Both the position numbers and the translations under genes were made by a program. A stretch of DNA of 34,680 nt. Source: Candidatus Kuenenia stuttgartensis. Its GTDB lineage: Bacteria; Planctomycetota; Planctomycetia; Pirellulales; UBA1268. The notes beneath the pieces were generated by a model. The model did not search any database. It saw only the letters and a program-made list of their open reading frames with translations, and was not told where the DNA came from. Of the stretch, positions 7,267 to 19,168 are shown in pieces. Positions within the stretch are counted from its first letter, which is position 1, and each line of letters begins with the position of its first letter. The DNA is taken from positions 1 through 34,680 of the forward strand of contig CALQRA010000023.1 in assembly GCA_943332855.1 (NCBI GenBank). Reading direction: 5' to 3'.

Positions 7267-9570
7267 TCATCCCCGCGGCAGACTGCCGAGGTGACGCAGC
7301 CACTGCTCGATCCACGGGGGCGACCACGGGTTCCAGGTGGGGTAGGCGACTGACACCACCGAGAGGGCGAGGAGCAGCAGCGCCAGCCACCGCCCGGCCC
7401 GGTGACGCGCCAAGCTGTCGGCCGCCGGCACCGCAGCCACCGTCCACAGCGGCGCGAGCCAGAACACCCAGCGGAAACCACTCGACACCCCGCCGTAGTT
7501 GCGGTCGATCTGGGAACGCGTCAGATAGAAGAGGATCACGACGGCCGACACGAGGAGGATCGCCACGGCGAGATGCGCCTGGCCGGGGGGGGCGGGCCGG
7601 CGCCGGGCCATGATCAGGAGCCCGAGGCCCCAGGGAACGAGGATCCAAGCGGGGGTCAGCGAAAAGATCCCATGGTGCCCGACCAACGCGTGCCAGGCGT
7701 AGACCAGCGCCGAGGGCTCTCCCCGATCGACCCCCTTCGGATCGCGCCAGTAGCTTGTCAGCTGCTTGCCGTTGGAGAGCGCGAGCGAGTAGTCGTACCA
7801 GTTGTCGGGATTGGCCGAGGAGGTCCCGGGGGCCGGCGCGGCCGCCGCGGCCGGCAGCTGTGGGCCAGCGGCGTGGCGGTGAGCGTAGGGGGGAAAAACC
7901 GATCCGTGGGCCAGCCAGTTCGTGCCCAGGGCGACCGCGGCGACGACGAGGGCCGCCGGGAGCGCGGCGCGGAGCGTGGGCCGCGGGTCGACCAGCCACA
8001 GCATTCCGAGGACCGCAACGCACCAGGCGAGGGCGGGGAGTTCGAAGGCCGCGGTCAGGGCGGCGAGGGCCCCGGCGGCGGCGAAGGCCGGCAGCGAGCC
8101 CCCCCGGCTGACGATCCGCAGGAGCCACCACCCGCTCCAGGCGGCCGCGGCTGCCGCCGGGAGGTGGTTGGTGAGCGACACGGCGAACGGGGAGAGGAGC
8201 GTGCCAAAACAGATCAGGGCGGTCCCCCAGCCGCGCCCCCAGTCGGTGCCGCCGACCGACTCAATCATCTGCTGGGTGGCCACGAGGAGGAGGCCGAAGG
8301 GGAGGAGGCAGCAGGCGACCAGGAGCATCCGCGCCATCTCAAACGGATGGTCGCCGAGTGTCCAGCCGGTGATCCGATGGAGGGCCCAGTAGGGGGCGGC
8401 ACAGAGCACGGTGAGGAGCGGCGGCTTGCTCGAGTAGAGGCGGATCCGGCCGGTCGCGTCGGCGTGGGCCACCGCGTCGATGGTGTCCCAGCCCGGTTCG
8501 ACGACGAGGTCGTCGATCGCAAACGTCCCCCGTTCCACCAGGGCCCGGACGGCGAGCCAGCGACTGCGGTCGTTGGCCGAGAGAAAGGGGCGCTGGAGGC
8601 GCCGTCCCTGTTCGATTGAGGCCGAGATCGCCTCGGCGTCGACCGCCGGCCCACCAGCCGCTTCGGCGTCGCGGGCCTTGGCCACGGCCTCCGCGACGAG
8701 GCGCTTCTCGAGCGCGATCTTGTCGACGCTCGTGACGGCGCCGATCCGGCCGAGGAGGCTGCCGAGGGCCACAGCGAACAGGATCGCCGCCAGGTGCCGC
8801 CGGTTGCGCGCCCGGGCGGAGGGGACGATCGCGCCGAGCGCGGCGATCCGGCGGCGGCGGATGTCAGCGGCGATCCGGGTCAGATCGATGAGGCCGGTGA
8901 AGAACCGGGCGAAGCCATACTTCGACCGCCCCAGCTTCCGCGGCCGGTGATGGACCGCCTTCTCGACGACCCGGTGGCCATCCGCGGCGGCGAGCACGGT
9001 GATGAAACGGTGCATGTCGTCGCCGAGCCGCAGCGACCGTGCCGCCGGGGCACGGAAAACCTTCAGGCCACAGTTGTGGTCGTGGAGCAGAAGCCCGCTG
9101 ACCCAGCCGACGAGAAGATTGAAGATCCGCGACGGGAGGGTCTTGTGCCAGGGGTCGAGTCGCGGGGTCTTCCAGCCGTTGACCACGTCGGCGCCAGCCC
9201 GGCCGGTCGCCGGGTCGGCGAGGAGGGCGAGCATGGCGGGGATCTCGGCCGGGTCGTCCTGGCCGTCGCCGTCGAGCATCACGATCCGCGGGCTCCGGCA
9301 GCGGGCAAAGCCCTCCATGAGAGCCGCCGACTTCCCCTCGCCCCGGGGCTTGTGGATTCCCACCACGCGCGGATCACCCCCCGCGGCGGAGTCGATTTCC
9401 CCGCGGGTGTTGTCGCTCGATCCGTCGTCGATGACAAACAGCTCCCAGGCGAGCCCGGCGCCATCGAGCACGGTGCGGATCTCGGCGATCAGCGGGCCGA
9501 TGTTCCCCGCTTCGTTGCGCACAGGGACGACGAGCGAGACGTCCGGCGGCGAGGCGTCGGGTGCGTTCAT
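7267..9570 (-). CDS. Family 2 glycosyltransferase fused to a polytopic membrane domain
   Basis: A 767-aa protein from ATG 9570. Residues 1 to about 250 are a GT-A family 2 glycosyltransferase of the dolichyl-phosphate mannosyltransferase/undecaprenyl type. They show VVPVRNEAGNI, VIDDGSSDNT with D48-D49, the D100-G-D102 metal-binding motif in MLDGDGQDDP, and the GRSKYGFARFFTGL segment. From about residue 260 the sequence becomes a membrane protein with roughly nine or more segments and large loops. One loop carries FLSANDRSRWLAVRALVERG and YSSKPPLLTVL, which look like the periplasmic loop of GT-C/PMT-type glycosyltransferases or a planctomycete-specific membrane protein. The likely role is transfer of a sugar to a lipid carrier and its use in envelope glycoconjugates. 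The frame upstream of 9570 continues antisense to the next gene and is not coding. The fusion is seen; the role of the second half is inferred. Confidence 0.85.
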   Translation of the reverse strand: MNAPDASPPDVSLVVPVRNEAGNIGPLIAEIRTVLDGAGLAWELFVIDDGSSDNTRGEIDSAAGGDPRVVGIHKPRGEGKSAALMEGFARCRSPRIVMLDGDGQDDPAEIPAMLALLADPATGRAGADVVNGWKTPRLDPWHKTLPSRIFNLLVGWVSGLLLHDHNCGLKVFRAPAARSLRLGDDMHRFITVLAAADGHRVVEKAVHHRPRKLGRSKYGFARFFTGLIDLTRIAADIRRRRIAALGAIVPSARARNRRHLAAILFAVALGSLLGRIGAVTSVDKIALEKRLVAEAVAKARDAEAAGGPAVDAEAISASIEQGRRLQRPFLSANDRSRWLAVRALVERGTFAIDDLVVEPGWDTIDAVAHADATGRIRLYSSKPPLLTVLCAAPYWALHRITGWTLGDHPFEMARMLLVACCLLPFGLLLVATQQMIESVGGTDWGRGWGTALICFGTLLSPFAVSLTNHLPAAAAAAWSGWWLLRIVSRGGSLPAFAAAGALAALTAAFELPALAWCVAVLGMLWLVDPRPTLRAALPAALVVAAVALGTNWLAHGSVFPPYAHRHAAGPQLPAAAAAPAPGTSSANPDNWYDYSLALSNGKQLTSYWRDPKGVDRGEPSALVYAWHALVGHHGIFSLTPAWILVPWGLGLLIMARRRPAPPGQAHLAVAILLVSAVVILFYLTRSQIDRNYGGVSSGFRWVFWLAPLWTVAAVPAADSLARHRAGRWLALLLLALSVVSVAYPTWNPWSPPWIEQWLRHLGSLPRG

Positions 9571-9840
9571 GCATTCGGACCAGACGGAAGCCCCTTCCGG
9601 CCGGGCTGGCGGCAAGGGACGCGTGGAGGGTGCGCCGGACGACAGCGGTGCCGAGGAGGCCGGCCGCGGCGAACCGGGCAGGATACCCCCCGGGAGCCCG
9701 ATCCGCCATGCCGGAACGGCGCCGACCGCCATGACGGGCGGGGAGCACTTTTTCAAACCACCGTTACAATTCGTCCACGAGTGCCAGCCCTGTCCCCTAG
9801 CCCCCGTCCTCTGGACCCGCGGTTCCCACCGCGCCGCGGA
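9571..9840. other. Divergent intergenic region
   Basis: 270 bases between the divergent glycosyltransferase fusion and AI-2E-type permease genes, expected to hold both promoters. An AT-richer patch around 9747-9772 contains TACAAT at 9765-9770, a possible plus-strand -10 element, but I see no convincing -35 at the right spacing. Long antisense frames cross it, but nothing protein-like is seen. Confidence 0.35.
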
Positions 9841-11010
9841 ATGCTCCTCAACAACCAGATCCCGACCGACACGCCGCCGAAGCGCGTGGCGCGGATCGTC
9901 TCCTTCGGCGTCCTCCTCGCACTCGTCGCCATCTTCGGCCTGCTTTCGCTGCGGGTGATGTCGAGCTTCCTGCTGCCGTTGCTCCTGGCGGCGATGCTCG
10001 TCGTCATCTTCGGGCCGCTCCATCGCTGGCTGCGCATTCGGATCATCGGTTTGGACAAGGGGCCGGAGTGGATCCCCGCCCTCCTCACGACGCTGTTTGT
10101 GCTTCTCATCGTCCTCGTGCCGCTGTTTCTCCTCGTCGCCCGCGCCGGTGGCGATGCCGTGCGGATCTTCCGGGCGGAGAACGGGCTGAAGCTCGATCCG
10201 GCGGTCCTGTCGGGGCTCGTTGAACGGATCAATGATGCCACCGGGATGCATCTGACCGCCGAGTCGGTCAACGGCGAGCTGCGGCGGATCGCCGAGGACT
10301 GGATCGGGCCGGTGGCGGCGCGGACCCCGGTCGTGATCGTCAAGGGGATCATCGGCCTCGTGGTGATGACGGTGGCGCTCTTCTACTTCCTCGCCGACGG
10401 GCGGCGGATGCTCGCCGCGGTCACCCGTCTGATCCCCCTCGATCCCCGCTATCAGTGGCAGCTCCTCCAGGAGTTTGAGGAGGTGAGCCGGGCGGTCGTC
10501 AGCTCGACGCTCCTGGCGGCGATCGTTCAGGCGGTGCTGGCGGGATTCGGCTTCTGGGTGGCGGGGCTGGGGAACGTCTTCCTCCTCACGCTCCTGACGT
10601 TCTTCGGGGCCCTCGTCCCGTTCGTCGGAGCCGCGGCCATCTGGGGGAGCGCCAGCCTTTATCTCCTGTTCTTCGCCAAAAACACCTTTGCTGCGGCCGG
10701 CCTGGCCGTGTGGGGGATGGGGGTGGTCTCCACCGTCGACAACATCATCAAACCGATCGTCCTCCACGGACAGTCGAAGCTCCATCCCCTCCTGGCGCTG
10801 TTGAGCGTCCTGGGGGGCGTCGGCGCTCTGGGGCCGATCGGGATTTTCGTCGGTCCGATCGCCGTGGCCTTCCTCCAGGCGGCCCTGACGATGCTCCAGA
10901 CCGAGCTCGACAGCCTTGACGTCGGGAATCTGGCCAGCGGCGCCTCCGCCGGACCGTCCGATTCCGGGCCAGTTGCACAAACCGCCGTCGAGAGGTTGAA
11001 ATCGCCCTGA
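9841..11010 (+). CDS. AI-2E family transporter (TqsA/PerM-like permease)
   Basis: A 389-aa inner-membrane protein from ATG 9841. Hydrophobic segments lie at about 16-37, 40-60, 77-99 and 163-188, followed by a dense block at about 220-355. This is the usual two-plus-one, long loop, then five-segment layout of the AI-2E/UPF0118 family. Family blocks are visible: ALFYFLADGRRM, FGALVPFVGAAAIWG, and STVDNIIKPIVLHGQSKLHP with the conserved Asp-Asn-...-Pro. The C-terminal segment LGPIGIFVGPIAVAF is also typical. Members have been linked to autoinducer-2 export, sodium/proton antiport or unspecified efflux; which applies here cannot be told. The gene is followed 30 bases later by a small membrane protein on the same strand, likely one transcript. 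An upstream GTG at 9780 in the same frame is possible but adds non-family residues. Confidence 0.9.
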   Translation: MLLNNQIPTDTPPKRVARIVSFGVLLALVAIFGLLSLRVMSSFLLPLLLAAMLVVIFGPLHRWLRIRIIGLDKGPEWIPALLTTLFVLLIVLVPLFLLVARAGGDAVRIFRAENGLKLDPAVLSGLVERINDATGMHLTAESVNGELRRIAEDWIGPVAARTPVVIVKGIIGLVVMTVALFYFLADGRRMLAAVTRLIPLDPRYQWQLLQEFEEVSRAVVSSTLLAAIVQAVLAGFGFWVAGLGNVFLLTLLTFFGALVPFVGAAAIWGSASLYLLFFAKNTFAAAGLAVWGMGVVSTVDNIIKPIVLHGQSKLHPLLALLSVLGGVGALGPIGIFVGPIAVAFLQAALTMLQTELDSLDVGNLASGASAGPSDSGPVAQTAVERLKSP

Positions 11011-11514: not shown

Positions 11515-11589
11515 CCGTCCTCCGAGAGGGCTCCTGACGCCGGGGCGTTGTCGGTCAGAGGGTTGTCTGGCGGTCGTCCCGTTGTCTGG

Positions 11590-11670
11590 GATCGTGTGGT
11601 GGACTGGGATCGTGTGGTGGACTGGGATCGTGTGGTGGACTGGGATCGTGTGGTGGACTGGGATCGTGTG
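11590..11670 (+). repeat. 18-bp in-frame tandem repeat (4.5 copies)
   Basis: Four perfect copies of GATCGTGTGGTGGACTGG (11590-11661) and a fifth half copy (11662-11670). The period is a multiple of three and the frame stays open, giving D-R-V-V-D-W units directly before the first membrane segment of the spermidine-synthase-like gene. Each unit carries an in-frame GTG. The GGTGG of one unit lies nine bases before the GTG of the next. Confidence 0.95.
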
Positions 11671-13947
11671 GGGCTCTTCGTGCTGCCGTTTGCGCTGGCG
11701 ATTTTCACCGGGGCCTTCCTCCTCTTCATCGGGCAACCGCTGGTCGGGAAGTACATCCTCCCCTGGTATGGCGGTGGTCCCGGCGTCTGGACGACCTGCC
11801 TCCTCTTCTTCCAGGGCGTGCTGCTGGCGGGCTATGCCTATGCCCACCTCCTCACGACCTGGCTGTCGCCGCGGCGGCAGGCGCTGGTCCATGGCGTCGG
11901 TCTCGCGGTGGCCCTCGCCTTCCTCCCCATCGCCCCTGGGGAAGGCTGGCGCCCCCGTCCCGGCGATGACCCCGTCGCCTCGATCCTCCTCCTCCTCACG
12001 GCGACGATCGGCCTGCCGTTTGTCGTCCTCTCGGCCACCGGCCCGCTCCTCCAGCGGTGGTTCAGCCTGGTCCACCCAGGCCTGTCGCCCTACCGGCTCT
12101 ATGCCCTCTCCAATGTTGGTTCGCTCCTCGCCCTCCTCGCCTATCCGACGGTGGTCGAGCCGCGGCTGACGCGTGCGGCCCAGGCCGGTGCCTGGTCGAT
12201 CGGCCTGGCCTGCTTCGCCACGGCCTGTGCGGCCTGTGCCGCGCGGGTGTGGACGGGCGCTGGCCGTGCGGAGCTCGAAAGCGGGGCTGTCGACGCCGGG
12301 CTCGAAGACGAACAGGCCGGCGACGGCATGCTCTGGGTGGTACTCCCGGCGATCGCGTCGGTGCTCCTGGTGTCGACGACGACCCGGCTGTGCCAGGACG
12401 TGGCGGCGATGCCGCTGTTGTGGGTGCTGCCGCTGGGGATCTACCTGGTGACGTTCATCGTCGCCTTCGACCACGCAGCCTGGTACCGCCGGGGGCCCTT
12501 CACGGCCCTCGCCGCGCTCGGTGTCGTCGTCACCTGGCAGATCCTGGCGGAGGGCAACTCCGCCCCGCTCAAGCTCCAGTTGGCAGGGCATCTCGCGACG
12601 CTGTTGGTCACCTGCATGGTCTGCCACGGCGAGCTTTACCGGCTCCGGCCCGCCCCCCGTCACCTCACCCGCTACTTCCTCGCCATCGCCGCCGGAGGAG
12701 CGATCGGCGGCTTGGCGGTGGCCGTTGTCGCCCCGAGCTTGTTCAACGACGACTACGAACTTCCGGCCGGACTGTGGATGCTTTTGGTGGCGCTGGGGGC
12801 CCTGTCGTTTCGACACCACAGCCGGGCAATCCCGCTGGCCGCGGGCCTGGGAACGCTCGTCGGCGTGGCAGCGGTGCCGTGGCTCCGGAGCCTGTGCAAC
12901 GACGGCGGCACGTTCACCTCCGAGGCGGCCCGATTCCTCCCCACCGCCGCCCCGTGGGTGGCAGGCTTCGTTCTCGTCTTTCTCGCCTGCCTGTGTGACG
13001 TGCGGCACCGTCGGCTCGACCCCCCCTGGCGGCCGGCGGCGGGGGGCTTTCTGATGCTCCTTGCCGGCGCTGCCGGCACTGCCTTTCTCCTCCTCACCGG
13101 GGATCCGGGCGACCGCGGAATCGTCCGCAGCCGCAACTTCTACGGGACGCTCGAGGTGATCGAGCCGGCGGTGAGCGACTCCCGCGAGCGCCATCGGCTC
13201 CTCGTTCACGGGGCGACGACTCACGGCCTGCAACTGACCGAGCCGGGGAGGACCCGGATTCCAACCACCTACTACGCCACCACGAGTGGGGTCGGGCGGG
13301 CAATCGCGAGCCTCGGGGAGGGGAAGGGAGATGGGGATGGATGGCTCGAGCCGCAGGCCATCGGCCTGGTCGGCCTCGGTGTGGGGACGCTCGCGGCCTA
13401 TGCTCAGGAAGGGGATTCGCTCCGGGTCTACGAGATCAACCCGGCGATCCGCGACCTCGCGCGGGAGCGGTTCAGCTTCCTCGACGAATGCCCGACGACG
13501 GTCGAGGTGGTGATGGGGGACGCGCGGCTCTCGATGGAGCGGGAGATCGCCGCCGGCGAGCTCCAGGCCTTCGACCTCCTCGCCCTCGATGCTTTTTCGA
13601 GCGATGCGATCCCCGTTCATCTCCTCACGCGCGAGGCCTTCGAGATTTACCTCGCGCACCTCGCACCGGAGGGGATCCTCGCCATCCACATCTCCAACCG
13701 GTACCTCGATCTCGCCCCGGTGGTGGAGCGCCTCGCCGACCACTTCGGCCTCGAGATCGTTTCCGTGAACGATTCCGGAGGCGATGAATGGTGGGGGTAC
13801 AGTTCGACGTGGATGCTGCTTTCGCGCGACGGGGCCGTGCTCGAGCGCGAGGGGATCGCCACCGCCGCTGATCCCTGCGGGAAGGGGGCGGGGTGCAGGC
13901 TGTGGACAGACGACTTCGCGAGTGTCTGGTCGATCCTCATCCCGTGA
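11668..13947 (+). CDS. Fused MFS/spermidine-synthase-like membrane protein
   Basis: About 759 aa from GTG 11668; the frame is open back to a TTG at 11548 through the 18-bp repeat, and any repeat GTG could also start it. The N-terminal half is a polytopic membrane domain beginning AFLLFIGQPLVGKYILPWYG and PGVWTTCLLFFQG, diagnostic of the fused MFS/spermidine synthase family. The C-terminal third is a methyltransferase fold: the SAM-type glycine loop GLVGLGVGTLAA (about residue 565), the acidic strand-2 end VYEINP, GDARL, and LLALDAFSSDAIPVHLLTRE. The usual spermidine synthase DSTDP-like catalytic segment is replaced by DAFSSDAIP, as in other membrane-fused members, so aminopropyl transfer is doubtful. 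The gene is convergent with the coiled-coil ATPase. The biological role of the family is not established. Confidence 0.87.
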   Translation: MGLFVLPFALAIFTGAFLLFIGQPLVGKYILPWYGGGPGVWTTCLLFFQGVLLAGYAYAHLLTTWLSPRRQALVHGVGLAVALAFLPIAPGEGWRPRPGDDPVASILLLLTATIGLPFVVLSATGPLLQRWFSLVHPGLSPYRLYALSNVGSLLALLAYPTVVEPRLTRAAQAGAWSIGLACFATACAACAARVWTGAGRAELESGAVDAGLEDEQAGDGMLWVVLPAIASVLLVSTTTRLCQDVAAMPLLWVLPLGIYLVTFIVAFDHAAWYRRGPFTALAALGVVVTWQILAEGNSAPLKLQLAGHLATLLVTCMVCHGELYRLRPAPRHLTRYFLAIAAGGAIGGLAVAVVAPSLFNDDYELPAGLWMLLVALGALSFRHHSRAIPLAAGLGTLVGVAAVPWLRSLCNDGGTFTSEAARFLPTAAPWVAGFVLVFLACLCDVRHRRLDPPWRPAAGGFLMLLAGAAGTAFLLLTGDPGDRGIVRSRNFYGTLEVIEPAVSDSRERHRLLVHGATTHGLQLTEPGRTRIPTTYYATTSGVGRAIASLGEGKGDGDGWLEPQAIGLVGLGVGTLAAYAQEGDSLRVYEINPAIRDLARERFSFLDECPTTVEVVMGDARLSMEREIAAGELQAFDLLALDAFSSDAIPVHLLTREAFEIYLAHLAPEGILAIHISNRYLDLAPVVERLADHFGLEIVSVNDSGGDEWWGYSSTWMLLSRDGAVLEREGIATAADPCGKGAGCRLWTDDFASVWSILIP

Positions 13948-13958
13948 CGCGCCCGCGC

Positions 13959-13978
13959 CGGGGCCCGATCAGGCCCCG
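13959..13978. terminator. GC-rich hairpin between convergent genes
   Basis: Perfect 7-bp stem CGGGGCC/GGCCCCG with the six-base loop CGATCA, in the junction of two convergent genes. The loop overlaps the stop codon of the minus-strand ATPase gene (13969-13971). The symmetry suits a bidirectional terminator, but there is no T-tract on either side. Confidence 0.35.
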
Positions 13979-16900
13979 CGGCCGCGGGATTGCTTGCCGC
14001 GCGGAGCAGGCTTCGAGGCTCCCCTCGCCTTCGTCTCCCGCCGCGGTCGGCCGGTATCGGCCTCGTCGGCATCGTGGTCGTTGGCCCTGTCGAGATCCTC
14101 GCTCGCTTGGGATTGCGGGATCATCCCTGCGACCATCTCCAGGTGCGGGTAGCTTGTGCGGCCGTGGCCGACGCGCGGGACCGGCGTGGTGCCGACCGAC
14201 GTCGGGAATGTGGCGGCGCCGGCGGCCGTCGCGGAGGGGGCTGTGACATACCCGACATAGCCGAGCCCGGCGAGGTGTTCGGAGTGGATCACCGTGTGCG
14301 TCGGGAGACGGTGGCCGTCGTGCGCGGGGTAGCCGAGGCCCCCCTGCGAATGCCGCGGCATCACGGCGGGGAACGGGGTGGGGAAAGGGGTGGGGAAAGG
14401 GGTGGGGAAAGGGGACTGGAGCGCTGTCGCCGGCGCCGGTGGCGCGGGGTGGACAACCGCTGGCGACAGATGCTGGACGACAACCCGGGCCCGCGGAGCG
14501 GGCTCCGGTGGCAGTGGCAGGGGGAGGGGGAGGGAGTGGTCAGCGACAGGCTCCGGCCGGCGGACCTCCACCCGCACCGTCTCCGGTTCTGGCGCGACGA
14601 CCCGCGCCGCAGGGAGGGAGGCGACGGTGGGGTCGGCCCCCGAGAGCGAGCGCACTGACGCTCCCACCCCGCGGAAGATCTGCGCCACGTGGGTATGGCA
14701 GGTGAGCACGAGCATCTGCCGCTCGCGGGGCTGGTCGGCGACGAACTCCATGAGCACCTCCGCCGCGGCCCGGGCCCGGCTGTCGTCGAAGTTCACCAGC
14801 GCGTCGTCGATGACGACCGGCAGATGGACGCCGTGCCGCTCGAGATCGCGGACGAGCGCCAGTCGGAGGGCGAGGAACACCTGCTCGCGCGTCCCGCGGC
14901 TGAGCCGGTCGGGGCTCCAGGTGAGGTCGTGGGTGTCGTGGATCTCGAGCCGGGCTTCGTGGATCGAGGTCGTAATCCGGGTGTAATGCCCCTCGGTCAG
15001 CCGGACGAGCCAGCGGGAGGCCTCGCGGAGGACCGCCGGCTGATGGTCGCGGGCGAAGGCGGCCCGCGTCGACTCGAGCATCTCCCGGGCCCCCTCGAGG
15101 GTCCGGCGGCGGTGGAGGTGGCGGTCGAGATCGTGTTCGAGGGTGGCGATCTCGAGTTGGATTCCCTCGGTGGAATGGTCCTTGGCGGCCGCCTCGACGC
15201 GGCCGGCGGCAGCCTTGCGCGCTTCGCGGGCCCGGTCGAGCGCCTCGCGGGTGGCGACCGTCACGAGGTGGGCCTCGGCGATCCGCTGCTCGAGGGTCAC
15301 TTGCTTCGTCCCGGTCATCCACTGCTCGAGTTCGGGGAGGTCGGCGAGCCGGCGGCGCGCGTCGCCCCAGGCCCGTTCGGCCACCTGGGCCTCCAGCCGC
15401 GCCTCGTCGACGAGGGGGCGGCGGTCGACGAGGGGGAGGAACTCCTTCTCCGTCTCGACATTCCAGCGGGCGATGATCTCGCGCACGCGACGATCGGCGA
15501 GCTTGACCCGCGCCAACGCCTCGCGGTGCCGGCGACGGGCGCGGACGAGCCGGGCGGTCATCTTGCCCCGCAGACGGTGAAACGTGGTCTCCCGGCGGAG
15601 CCGCTCCCGCAGCTGGAGGAGGTTCTCCAGCGCCGTGCCCTCGGGGAGCATGTCGCATTCGACCAGGATCTCCTCGACCTGGTGCCCCATCGCAGCGAGC
15701 TCGTCGCGGCGCAGTCGCGCCTCCTCCGAGGTCCGCTGCCGCTCCTCGTCGAGGGCCAGGAGGGCCGTCTGGTGCCGGGAGAGCTGACGGACATCGGCGG
15801 GGGAGAGGGTGGCGGGGAGGGCGCGGGCCTCGAGGGCCTTTCGCCACGCCGTCCGGGCGGCGACGCGCCGCTGCGCCGCGTGGCCGAGATCCTGCTGGGC
15901 GGCTTCGAGCCGATCGGAGAGGAGGTGGAGCGAGCCCTCGCGCGTGGCGAGGGCCTCGAGTCGCTCGACCTCGTTTTGGGCCGCGACGAGCCGACGGTCG
16001 ATCGTCGGGGCATGCTCCCCCGGCCAGCGCTCCACGGTGCCGCGGAGGGCCTCGAGCTTCTTGTCGAAGAGGCCGCACTGGGCCGAGGCGTCGTCGCGCT
16101 GCTTCCGGACCATCGTCACCTGCTGGCGGGCCGACTCGAGGCGGTCGCTGGCGGCGCGGTCGAGCGACCAGGTGACCACCGAAGCCAGGCCGGTGCCGAC
16201 CAGGCCGAGCGCGGCCATCGCGTAGGCCAGCGATCCGGTGACCGCCGCGGGGAGGAACAGGCCCGAGAGGACCAGCGCGGCTCCGGTGATGAACATTGCC
16301 CCCAGGCCGAGGAGCCATTCCAGCGGGATCAGCTGCCCGCGGAGACTCGCGGCCACGTCCCGGTCGAGCGCGGTGAGCGACTTCTCCAGCTCGATCACCT
16401 GGTCGCCGGAGGCGATCCGGTTGCGGAGAAGGGCGGCCCGTCCGGCCGCCTCCTCGATCGCGGTGGCGAGCGACGCTCCCGCGGTTTGCGTGGCAGGTGA
16501 CTTGAGCGCGCCGCGCGTCGACTCGACGGCCGCCTTGGCCTCGGATACCGCCTGCTTCGCCCCTTTCAGGGCGCGGGCCGCCGCGGCCAAATCGCGCGCC
16601 CTCCCGCGGAGGCTGCCGAGGGAGCGGGCGAATCCGCTGGGGAGCTGCATCTCCGAGAGCGTGTCGGGAGAGGCCCCGGGCTTGGCCTCCGCCACCAGCA
16701 GCCGGACGAGCCCTGCAGCCCCGAGCTGCTCGCCGAAGCGGCGCGCCGCCTGCCGCGCCGTCGCGGCGGCTCGGGCCGACTCGGCCGCGAGCCGTTCCAG
16801 CCGCGGCTGCTCCTCGCACAGCGCCGCCACCGCGGTGCGCTTCTTCCAGATCTTCTCGTCAGCAGCGTGCGACTTGATCTCCCGGGCGATCTTTCCGCGG

Positions 16901-17835
16901 ATCCGCTTCCGCTTCGCCGCCGACCGGGCCAAGCCATCGCGCCGTTTCGTGGCCAGCTGCCAGGCGTCGAGATCGGCGTGGATCAGCGGGGCGGCCTCGA
17001 GCTGCGCCAGATGGTCGGTGGTCCGCCGCCATTGGCGGAACAACGGCTCGAGGGGGACGACCGCGCGGATCGTCTCCTCCGCCAGCTTCGCTTGGTGGTG
17101 GCCGCTCTCGCAGGCGGCGATCTCGGTATCGATCCGCGCAAGCTCGCTCCCCAGGGCGCCGGCGGCGACGGCCGGTGCCCCCATGCTCGCCAGCCTCCCC
17201 AGCGCGGCGCTGCGGCGCTGCCGGAGCGATTCGATCGGCGACACCTCCGGGTCGGTGGAGTCGAGCCGTTCAATGGCGACCCGCAGACTGTCGAGGACGC
17301 GCGTCACCCGGCCCCGATCGAGGCCGCTGGCCAGTTCGTAGAGCCGGCTCCCACAACCTTCCGCTTCGAGGGTGTGGAGCTCCTGGAGCTCGTCGAGGCC
17401 GAAGGCCATCACGGCGGTGAAGGTCCGTTCGTCGATGTCCCCCATGTAGTCTTGGAGGAAGAGGGTCGTGGCGGTGCCGCCGTCGGCCGCCGAGACGGTG
17501 AGATGGTCGGCGACCGGAAGATCCTTCTCGGCGGTGTAGTCCTGCCGCGAGAGGCGCTCGAGGTGGGGGCCCTCGTGGCGGCGTTCGACGAGGATCCGCC
17601 GGGCATCGAGCCCGGCGCGCGCCTGGAGGCGGCCGCCGCAGGGGAGGTGTGGATCGAGGATCCCCCGGCGGAAAAGATGGCCGAAACCGAAGAGGACGCC
17701 GCGGACGAACTCGAGGAGCGAGGTCTTGCCGGTCTCGTTCGTGCCATGGAGCACTTCGACGCCCGCGCCGAGCCCTTCGACCGTGACCCCCTCGAGGGCG
17801 CCGAAGCGGTCGATGTGGATCCGCTCGATGATCAT
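13969..17835 (-). CDS. YhaN/SbcC/Rad50-type coiled-coil ATPase with membrane hairpin
   Basis: A 1288-aa SMC-like ATPase. The N-terminal IERIHIDRFGAL strand is followed by Walker A (G31-T-N-E-T-G-K37-T38), then long Arg/Glu/Ala-rich coiled coils. In the middle (about 501-556) are two hydrophobic segments (LLGLGAMFITGAALVLSGLF and SLAYAMAALGLVGTGLASVV) that look like a membrane hairpin. After a second coiled coil come the ABC signature LSRGTREQ (978-985), Walker B with D1010-D1011 in PVVIDDALVNFDD, and the His switch LVLTCHTH (about 1045). The last roughly 220 residues are a Pro/Arg-rich low-complexity tail with PFPTP repeats, not part of the ATPase. No CxxC zinc hook is seen. YhaN-type proteins pair with SbcD-like nucleases in DNA repair or processing. 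Here the gene follows, after 49 bases, a gene whose product looks like an inactivated SbcD. Confidence 0.9.
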   Translation of the reverse strand: MIIERIHIDRFGALEGVTVEGLGAGVEVLHGTNETGKTSLLEFVRGVLFGFGHLFRRGILDPHLPCGGRLQARAGLDARRILVERRHEGPHLERLSRQDYTAEKDLPVADHLTVSAADGGTATTLFLQDYMGDIDERTFTAVMAFGLDELQELHTLEAEGCGSRLYELASGLDRGRVTRVLDSLRVAIERLDSTDPEVSPIESLRQRRSAALGRLASMGAPAVAAGALGSELARIDTEIAACESGHHQAKLAEETIRAVVPLEPLFRQWRRTTDHLAQLEAAPLIHADLDAWQLATKRRDGLARSAAKRKRIRGKIAREIKSHAADEKIWKKRTAVAALCEEQPRLERLAAESARAAATARQAARRFGEQLGAAGLVRLLVAEAKPGASPDTLSEMQLPSGFARSLGSLRGRARDLAAAARALKGAKQAVSEAKAAVESTRGALKSPATQTAGASLATAIEEAAGRAALLRNRIASGDQVIELEKSLTALDRDVAASLRGQLIPLEWLLGLGAMFITGAALVLSGLFLPAAVTGSLAYAMAALGLVGTGLASVVTWSLDRAASDRLESARQQVTMVRKQRDDASAQCGLFDKKLEALRGTVERWPGEHAPTIDRRLVAAQNEVERLEALATREGSLHLLSDRLEAAQQDLGHAAQRRVAARTAWRKALEARALPATLSPADVRQLSRHQTALLALDEERQRTSEEARLRRDELAAMGHQVEEILVECDMLPEGTALENLLQLRERLRRETTFHRLRGKMTARLVRARRRHREALARVKLADRRVREIIARWNVETEKEFLPLVDRRPLVDEARLEAQVAERAWGDARRRLADLPELEQWMTGTKQVTLEQRIAEAHLVTVATREALDRAREARKAAAGRVEAAAKDHSTEGIQLEIATLEHDLDRHLHRRRTLEGAREMLESTRAAFARDHQPAVLREASRWLVRLTEGHYTRITTSIHEARLEIHDTHDLTWSPDRLSRGTREQVFLALRLALVRDLERHGVHLPVVIDDALVNFDDSRARAAAEVLMEFVADQPRERQMLVLTCHTHVAQIFRGVGASVRSLSGADPTVASLPAARVVAPEPETVRVEVRRPEPVADHSLPLPLPLPPEPAPRARVVVQHLSPAVVHPAPPAPATALQSPFPTPFPTPFPTPFPAVMPRHSQGGLGYPAHDGHRLPTHTVIHSEHLAGLGYVGYVTAPSATAAGAATFPTSVGTTPVPRVGHGRTSYPHLEMVAGMIPQSQASEDLDRANDHDADEADTGRPRRETKARGASKPAPRGKQSRGRGA
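14375..14414 (-). repeat. 12-bp in-frame tandem repeat in the ATPase tail
   Basis: Three perfect copies of GGGGTGGGGAAA (plus strand, 14375-14410) and a partial fourth. On the coding strand each unit reads Phe-Pro-Thr-Pro, giving the PFPTPFPTPFPTPF stretch in the C-terminal tail of the coiled-coil ATPase. The period keeps the frame, so copy number can change without breaking the gene. Confidence 0.93.
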
Positions 17836-17884
17836 TCGGATGCTCCTCCGGTGGCGGGGCGCCGGCCCCGCCGTGGTCGATTCT

Positions 17885-19168
17885 TCAGGTTGATTCCATC
17901 AACTCAAGCGCCACCCAGGCCGACTCGCGTCCCCCCGGCGCACCGGCATGCTTCTCTGCCTCGAGGACCTTCTCGGCGAGGAGTGATGCGAACGAAGCCG
18001 TCGTGCCTGAGGCGCTCGAGGAGGCGTTGCGCACCAGCGGCAAGAGCGGTTCATTGCGGTCGGCCTCGAGATCCTGGCACCAGACGCGGAACGATCGGGG
18101 GTCGAACAATTCCCGCAGCCGCCCCATCGTCTCGGCGGAGATCTCGGAGACATGGATGCGGCGGGTGAGGCTCCCCCCGCAGTCGATGGCGATGCGGACG
18201 ACGTGGAGGGGACCGGCCGGATCGGGCGTCATCGACTCAAGCGTTCCCCAGATCGTCGTGGCGAGCTCCTCGTCGTTACCGGCCAGGGACTCGAGCGTCA
18301 GCGTCCGCCAGGTGACCCGGTGTGTCGGCACCTCCCGCCAGGCCGGACGGGCATCCGAACTGACGGGGTGGATCAACGCCGACGGCAATCCGCTGCCCCC
18401 CCCGGGGCCCGGCGACGTCGGGTGGAGAGGGGCCGGGCCGAGCGTCGTCAGCGTCACCGCGCCGCAGTGCCCGGCCGCCGCCTCGCTGGCGACGCGGGCC
18501 TGAAGTGCGGGGAGGGGGTGGACCCCGGCCGGGACTGCCTGGAGGCGTCTCGATCCCCACACGAAGAATGTTCCCGACGCGGGCCCCGAGCCTGCGGCCA
18601 GCGGGGCATGGAGGCCATGCATCGGCGCCGCCCCCTCGGCATGGATGGAGCTCCAGGCGTCGTCCCAGCCGACGACGATCCGTCGCTGGGCGGGGAGAAG
18701 GGAGGAGTGCGCGGAGGCGAAGGAGGGGACGAGTTGGCCGACGCCGGTCGTCGCCACCACTGGGCCGCGCGCCGAACAGATCTCGACCGACAAGCCGCGG
18801 ACGTCGAGCCGTTGCGGCGCCGCCGGCGTCACGAACGACAGGCCGGTCGGTTCGGCGAGGGCCCGGGCGACATTGGCGCAATCGGTGGCGTCGTCGGCGA
18901 CCCACACCGTCAGACAGCCCTCGGCCGCCAGAGCGCTGACAAGGCCGCGGAGTCGCGCCGCCTGGGCGGGGCTGGCGCGGAGGACATCGAGCGTCGAGCC
19001 GAACAGCACCAGCGCCGCCGCACGCGATTGACGGGCCGTGGTCACCGCCACCTCGAACGCCTCCCACGGCGCGGCAGCGAAGGCGTCAATGACATCGGCC
19101 GGGGCGGCGGCCGGCAGCGGGAGCGGGCGGTCGAGCGCCGCATCGAAGGCGAAGACGATGTCTGCCAC
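17885..19168 (-). CDS. SbcD/YhaO-like metallophosphoesterase homologue lacking catalytic residues
   Basis: A 427-aa protein from GTG 19168. The start is fixed by GGAGG eight bases upstream; the open frame runs on to 19582 but that part is not protein-like. The N-terminus follows the SbcD/YhaO layout strand by strand. FAFDAALDRPL stands where HASDLHLDRPL is usual; LVLFGSTLD for GDLFD (G57-S58); VWVADDATD for GNHD (93-96); VVGWDD for GHVH (167-170). A following AAPMHGLHAPLAAGSGPASG segment recalls the PGN-x-QGRH-x-x-E-x-G-x-x-G block. A C-terminal cap-like domain (about 330-400) contains RRIHVSEISAETMGRL. Metal ligands Asp and His are thus largely gone. It lies 49 bases upstream of the YhaN-type ATPase gene, the expected partner order. 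I infer a non-catalytic structural subunit. The alignment was made by eye, so homology is likely but not proven. Confidence 0.6.
   Translation of the reverse strand: MADIVFAFDAALDRPLPLPAAAPADVIDAFAAAPWEAFEVAVTTARQSRAAALVLFGSTLDVLRASPAQAARLRGLVSALAAEGCLTVWVADDATDCANVARALAEPTGLSFVTPAAPQRLDVRGLSVEICSARGPVVATTGVGQLVPSFASAHSSLLPAQRRIVVGWDDAWSSIHAEGAAPMHGLHAPLAAGSGPASGTFFVWGSRRLQAVPAGVHPLPALQARVASEAAAGHCGAVTLTTLGPAPLHPTSPGPGGGSGLPSALIHPVSSDARPAWREVPTHRVTWRTLTLESLAGNDEELATTIWGTLESMTPDPAGPLHVVRIAIDCGGSLTRRIHVSEISAETMGRLRELFDPRSFRVWCQDLEADRNEPLLPLVRNASSSASGTTASFASLLAEKVLEAEKHAGAPGGRESAWVALELMEST

Follow-up and report, generated by a model that had tools for sequence, protein, structure and literature searches.

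Some roles of Mre11-Rad50 complexes involve cutting and others do not, and the two kinds are hard to part by mutation; nuclease-dead Mre11 alleles elsewhere retain roles in tethering and signalling. Loss of the metals from a metallophosphoesterase fold is also known for the B-subunits of eukaryotic DNA polymerases alpha and delta, where the fold is kept as a structural subunit. The locus described here encodes a Mre11-like protein, P0001, and a Rad50-like ATPase, P0002. Like the polymerase B-subunits, P0001 has what appears to be a dead calcineurin fold; it differs from them in its complex and partners, the loss lying within a Mre11-Rad50-like pair. With Mre11-Rad50 and SbcCD, the pair shares the predicted fold of P0001 and the Rad50-like heads and coiled-coil arms of P0002. 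Unlike in those systems, the catalytic set of P0001 is lost, and P0002 has a predicted membrane hairpin in place of the zinc hook. YhaO/YhaN (SbcEF) of Bacillota is similar in its YhaO-then-YhaN gene order and in having an AAA_27 ATPase, and the YhaON pairs of Latilactobacillus and Enterococcus also have a mid-coil membrane hairpin. However, YhaO of Bacillota keeps the GNHD and GHIH motifs, whereas the catalytic histidine is gone from every relative in the P0001 lineage. Moreover, an HD-domain gene (the YhaM position) comes next after the Latilactobacillus and Enterococcus pairs, unlike in the pair studied here. A literature search returned no account of Mre11 or SbcD in planctomycetes, or of a Mre11 pseudo-nuclease, which is weak evidence of novelty.

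The window, i.e., the whole stretch of DNA that was analysed, comprises 34,680 nucleotides of contig CALQRA010000023.1 (assembly GCA_943332855.1) from Candidatus Kuenenia stuttgartensis (GTDB lineage Bacteria; Planctomycetota; Planctomycetia; Pirellulales; UBA1268). The two open reading frames named in the original prediction were present on its minus strand:

17885–19168, minus strand: P0001, pseudo-YhaO (Mre11/SbcD-fold subunit without the catalytic residues), 427 aa, GTG start
13969–17835, minus strand: P0002, YhaN-type (AAA_27) Rad50/SMC-like coiled-coil ATPase, 1288 aa, ATG start

The sequence GGAGG lies upstream of the GTG start of P0001. The P0001 gene is directly upstream of the ATPase gene, at a distance of 49 nucleotides, and the same order was observed in all relatives in which both genes were readable. 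No third gene fused or linked to either was found in the window, and the next gene downstream of the pair is convergent. Elsewhere in the window, a 799-aa open reading frame (11548–13947, plus strand) contains near its start a perfect 18-nt tandem repeat of 4.8 copies (11586–11671) that gives repeated VVDWDR, and an AI-2E family transporter with a long N-terminal extension is encoded at 8794–11010 (plus strand).

When P0001 was compared with Pfam and NCBIfam, no match was obtained, a result that is uninformative taken alone. A phmmer search of PDB sequences gave only chance matches to acetyltransferases, and neither P0001 nor P0002 matched the SbcC (TIGR00618) or SbcD (TIGR00619) models. By hhalign, a profile of P0001 and its relatives aligned with the intact YhaO profile at 99.9% probability (E 1e-33, 324 columns), and the profile of close orthologues only gave E 2e-5 across 315 columns. 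P0001 is a homologue of YhaO, SbcD, and Mre11, as the original prediction had proposed. Its AlphaFold2 model, the input alignment for which included less degenerate relatives, had a mean pLDDT of 80.6 and a pTM of 0.80. When the model was compared with the PDB, ranks 1–39 were all Mre11 or SbcD (Z 17.4–14.6, 271–319 residues aligned), and other phosphoesterases started at rank 40, with Z of ~12 and below. P0001 is thus predicted to have a calcineurin-like fold of the Mre11 type, in line with the earlier expectation. The model also has C-terminal helices (residues 376–384, 389–408, and 412–425), which may correspond to the C-terminal helix-loop-helix by which Mre11-type nucleases bind the base of the Rad50 coiled coil.

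The ligand and catalytic positions were mapped on the intact relative L122. We take D1, H1, D2, and H5b to bind metal 1, D2, N3, H4, and H5a to bind metal 2, and H3 to be catalytic. At D1/H1/D2/N3/H3/H4/H5a/H5b, P0001 has D/A/S/D/A/D/S/R, so that a single one of the eight residues is kept. The corresponding motifs are as follows:

19130–19147, minus strand: motif I counterpart FDAALD (residues 8–13; ADIHLD in intact relatives), Asp retained, His replaced by Ala
18986–19000, minus strand: motif II counterpart GSTLD (residues 57–61; intact GDLYD), bridging Asp replaced by Ser
18884–18895, minus strand: motif III counterpart DDAT (residues 92–95; intact GNHD), lacking the metal-2 Asn and the catalytic His
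18659–18670, minus strand: motif IV counterpart GWDD (residues 167–170; intact GVLH), metal-2 His replaced by Asp
18545–18556, minus strand: motif V counterpart GSRR (residues 205–208; intact GHIH), lacking both His

In P. furiosus Mre11, H173, H206, and H208 have been named as involved in nuclease activity (PMC3175470). Judged from the replacements listed above, P0001 would be devoid of nuclease activity. The loss of at least five metal or catalytic positions, as originally claimed, was borne out, but two of the motif readings behind it had to be corrected. GWDD, which had been read against GHxH, lies at the motif IV histidine (LHT), the true GHxH counterpart being GSRR; DATD, read against GNHD, is one residue off the best alignment, DDAT. 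Two of the refuting conditions that the original prediction had set for itself, a model lacking the calcineurin-like fold and motif loss confined to this strain, were examined, and neither held. Overall, the original prediction is partly supported, and the hairpin, the class-wide single origin, the stepwise loss, and the separate SbcCD described below were absent from it.

Ten orthologues, 60–95% identical to P0001, were found in planctomycete MAGs, and of the 36 genomes sampled from the window's family, 35 carried the gene. All 39 distinct sequences of this family shared the motif loss, each keeping 0–2 of the eight residues. Conservation of the loss in relatives was thus confirmed, and intact relatives were seen only in a lineage apart, either paralogous or outgroup, with no intact orthologue in the family. 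A loss of this kind, shared throughout the family, cannot be due to chance. A loss private to the source genome was rejected, the orthologues in relatives sharing it.

When 126 YhaO-like proteins from the family, order, and class were aligned, they split cleanly into 33 with all eight residues and 93 with 0–5. Among the latter, the catalytic histidine (H3) and H5a were never found, and N3 occurred in three. In the order outside the window's family, the metal-1 ligands were often kept (D1 in 44, H1 in 36, D2 in 33, and H5b in 24 of 50 proteins; all four in 20), and of the metal-2 and catalytic residues N3, H3, and H5a occurred in none of the 50 and H4 in 14. In the window's family, H1 was kept in none of the 39 sequences, and D2 and H5b in two each; L050, L102, and L136 retained none of the eight residues. 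These counts, which ignore relatedness, suggest a stepwise path in which metal 2 and catalysis were lost first and metal 1 later.

Other partly altered phosphoesterases were also observed. L178 and L179 (family f22) have a partly degenerate YhaO with GQHD, in which the catalytic histidine is retained and the Asn and other ligands are lost; they are possible intermediates or cases of independent loss. A phylum-level YhaO (L182, 1228–2583, minus strand) has GNED for GNHD, with 7 of the 8 ligands kept; here the catalytic histidine may have been lost independently. A family-wide phosphoesterase (L017, 116–1711, minus strand, and L154–L164) carries DWQ, GNHD, AHGST, and GDWH, with DxH changed to DxQ and the first His of GHxH to Asp.

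In a YhaO tree built without the motif columns, the pseudo proteins formed one side of a branch with bootstrap/SH-aLRT support of 100/100. The tree of ATPase heads gave the same pseudo clade (support 99), and this agreement implies that the two genes were inherited together. The loss of the catalytic set has a single ancient origin, deep in this class. The pseudo-YhaO stem of the window's family diverged very fast, with 2–3 changes per site, so the surfaces that contact DNA or the ATPase may have changed too. Pseudo and intact pairs occur together in several genomes of the order (e.g., G008, G015, G016, G021, G038, G082, G084, G110, and G130). In the window's family, 60 genomes were searched, many of them incomplete, and 59 yielded no intact YhaO copy. 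The sole intact-type YhaO there (L153/L206, G121:C183) is 5′-truncated, lies at the very start of a 5.6-kb contig, and is possibly contamination or a retained copy. Between close orthologues of P0001, dN/dS (NG86) over the whole gene was 0.08–0.20; values for the N-terminal part, which bears the motifs, were about as low, and those for the C-terminal part were in most cases the lowest. The P0001 gene is under purifying selection and is not a pseudogene.

P0002 matched Pfam AAA_27 with 31.2 bits (cut-off 22), and its features are the following:

17722–17745, minus strand: Walker A, GTNETGKT (residues 31–38)
14881–14904, minus strand: ABC signature, LSRGTREQ (residues 978–985)
14785–14820, minus strand: Walker B and D-loop region, PVVIDDALVNFD (residues 1006–1017)
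16168–16323, minus strand: predicted transmembrane hairpin (residues 505–556) at the coiled-coil apex, the place of the Rad50 zinc hook
13972–14640, minus strand: proline-rich C-terminal tail (residues 1066–1288)

Walker A, signature, and Walker B are all complete, and the ATPase is intact as had been predicted. A 12-nt tandem repeat (14368–14414) within the proline-rich tail gives FPTP repeats. In the AlphaFold2 model of residues 1–1065, coiled-coil helices span 174–930; the mean pLDDT was 80.7, and the pTM of 0.39 leaves the relative placement unsure. Only local structure was therefore used, and it places apex helices at 456–500, 505–527, and 530–596. The hairpin is a hydrophobic stretch of 52 residues midway along the coiled coil, and no CxxC (zinc hook) is found in P0002. 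All 47 ATPases paired with a pseudo-YhaO have the hairpin (maximum KD19 hydropathy 1.76–2.83), and among the soluble ATPases of the intact lineage it appeared in 1 of 34, marginally. Four pairs with an intact YhaO, found in other classes of the phylum, have it too (L185, L186, L187, and L199), and L185–L187 branch beside the pseudo clade (support 98/93). Intact pairs of Latilactobacillus, Enterococcus, Natrinema, and Deinococcus carry it as well, and the pairs of Methylomonas and Sphingomonas lack it. Since pairs with an intact nuclease have the hairpin, the predicted anchor is older than the nuclease loss; the hairpin belongs to one YhaN type that is already known. That it arose together with the nuclease loss was rejected on account of L185–L187, L199, and the pairs of the four other genera.

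A canonical SbcD, separate from the P0001/P0002 pair, is encoded in the source genome (L014, contig C63 of G000; over the NCBIfam SbcD cut-off). Its neighbour is an SbcC-like frame of 1272 aa with an SbcC match of 141 bits, below the cut-off of 478.5. With this separate machinery in the genome, cutting need not come from P0001 and P0002.

On balance, we favour the reading that the pair derives from SbcEF/YhaON and would serve as a DNA clamp that is anchored in the membrane, gated by ATP, and does not cut. Most economically, it would be an SbcEF-type complex, anchored in the membrane, in which cutting was lost in an ancestor of the class and which has since been retained for a task that needs no nuclease. 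P0002 would supply complete ATPase heads and long coiled-coil arms with the two-helix membrane hairpin at their apex, and the complex is most likely held in the membrane by this apex, with the heads in the cytoplasm. Pseudo-YhaO has kept the predicted Mre11 fold and the helices at its C-terminus, and it most likely continues to cap and dimerise the heads and to contact DNA, so that the complex would act as an ATP-gated clamp, sensor, or tether, and any cutting would be done by other nucleases. The physical pairing of P0001 with P0002, DNA as the substrate, and the membrane tethering are all presumed here. More tentatively, and with less than even confidence, the pair may be a class-wide, dedicated, nuclease-free, membrane-anchored Mre11-Rad50-like machine that exists beside SbcCD and YhaON and senses or holds DNA ends at the membrane, the pocket in the window's family being fully dissolved and replaced by salt bridges.

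The pair could instead be a platform by which a separate nuclease, such as the SbcCD of the same genome or some other exonuclease, is brought to membrane-located DNA ends, with P0001 as an adaptor and not the DNA contact. The separate SbcD with its adjoining SbcC-like frame agrees with this, as does the HD-domain gene next to the Latilactobacillus and Enterococcus pairs; but the window has no linked third gene and a convergent downstream neighbour, and we regard such a platform as unlikely. Still less likely is a complex that has left DNA altogether, an ATP-driven, membrane-anchored structure of the envelope or division made from an old repair complex. The hairpin in every partner ATPase, the dissolved active site, and the very fast change of the Mre11-like part in the window's family would fit it. 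However, the intact-nuclease pairs of four other genera also have the hairpin, and membrane location alone is therefore no argument against work on DNA.

Two further explanations concern P0001 itself. Its pocket may have been repurposed for other chemistry or another ligand (e.g., through the acids D9, D13, D61, D93, and D170) or for non-catalytic binding. In the window's family, D9 is retained in 36 of 39 members, N3 has become Asp or Glu in 33, and position D2 or H5b is occupied by a basic residue or His in 33; a salt bridge could replace the metals, so the pocket may retain a shape suited to some role. We consider this improbable, since no set of residues at the ligand positions is conserved across the pseudo lineage and three members keep none of the eight. 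Plain decay, with P0001 a pseudogene on its way out, has only the motif losses themselves in its favour, and is scarcely credible given the presence of the gene in nearly all sampled family genomes, the intact frame, the low dN/dS, and the single origin deep in the class.

On the favoured reading of a non-cutting clamp, evolution has parted the two roles of Mre11-Rad50: one lineage would have lost cutting once, while the ATPase and the Mre11 shape were kept under strong purifying selection. In many genomes of the order the pseudo pair stands beside an intact paralogous pair, and a nuclease-independent job of Mre11-Rad50-like complexes becomes directly testable in a culturable planctomycete. 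That the protein has been retained next to its motor partner after the loss suggests that such machines can do useful work without cutting DNA. For annotation, one of the two YhaO copies in the class would be misdescribed by the automatic label ‘DNA repair exonuclease’.

When the pair was compared with the anti-phage defence systems of PADLOC, P0001 gave no match and P0002 gave weak generic ATPase matches (LmuB, E 2e-5); an identity as an anti-phage defence system was rejected on this outcome. As a separate observation, a YhaO/YhaN pair on a Methylomonas koyamae plasmid (L218) lies directly behind the BREX-1 genes pglZ and brxL, a position hinting at use in a defence island.
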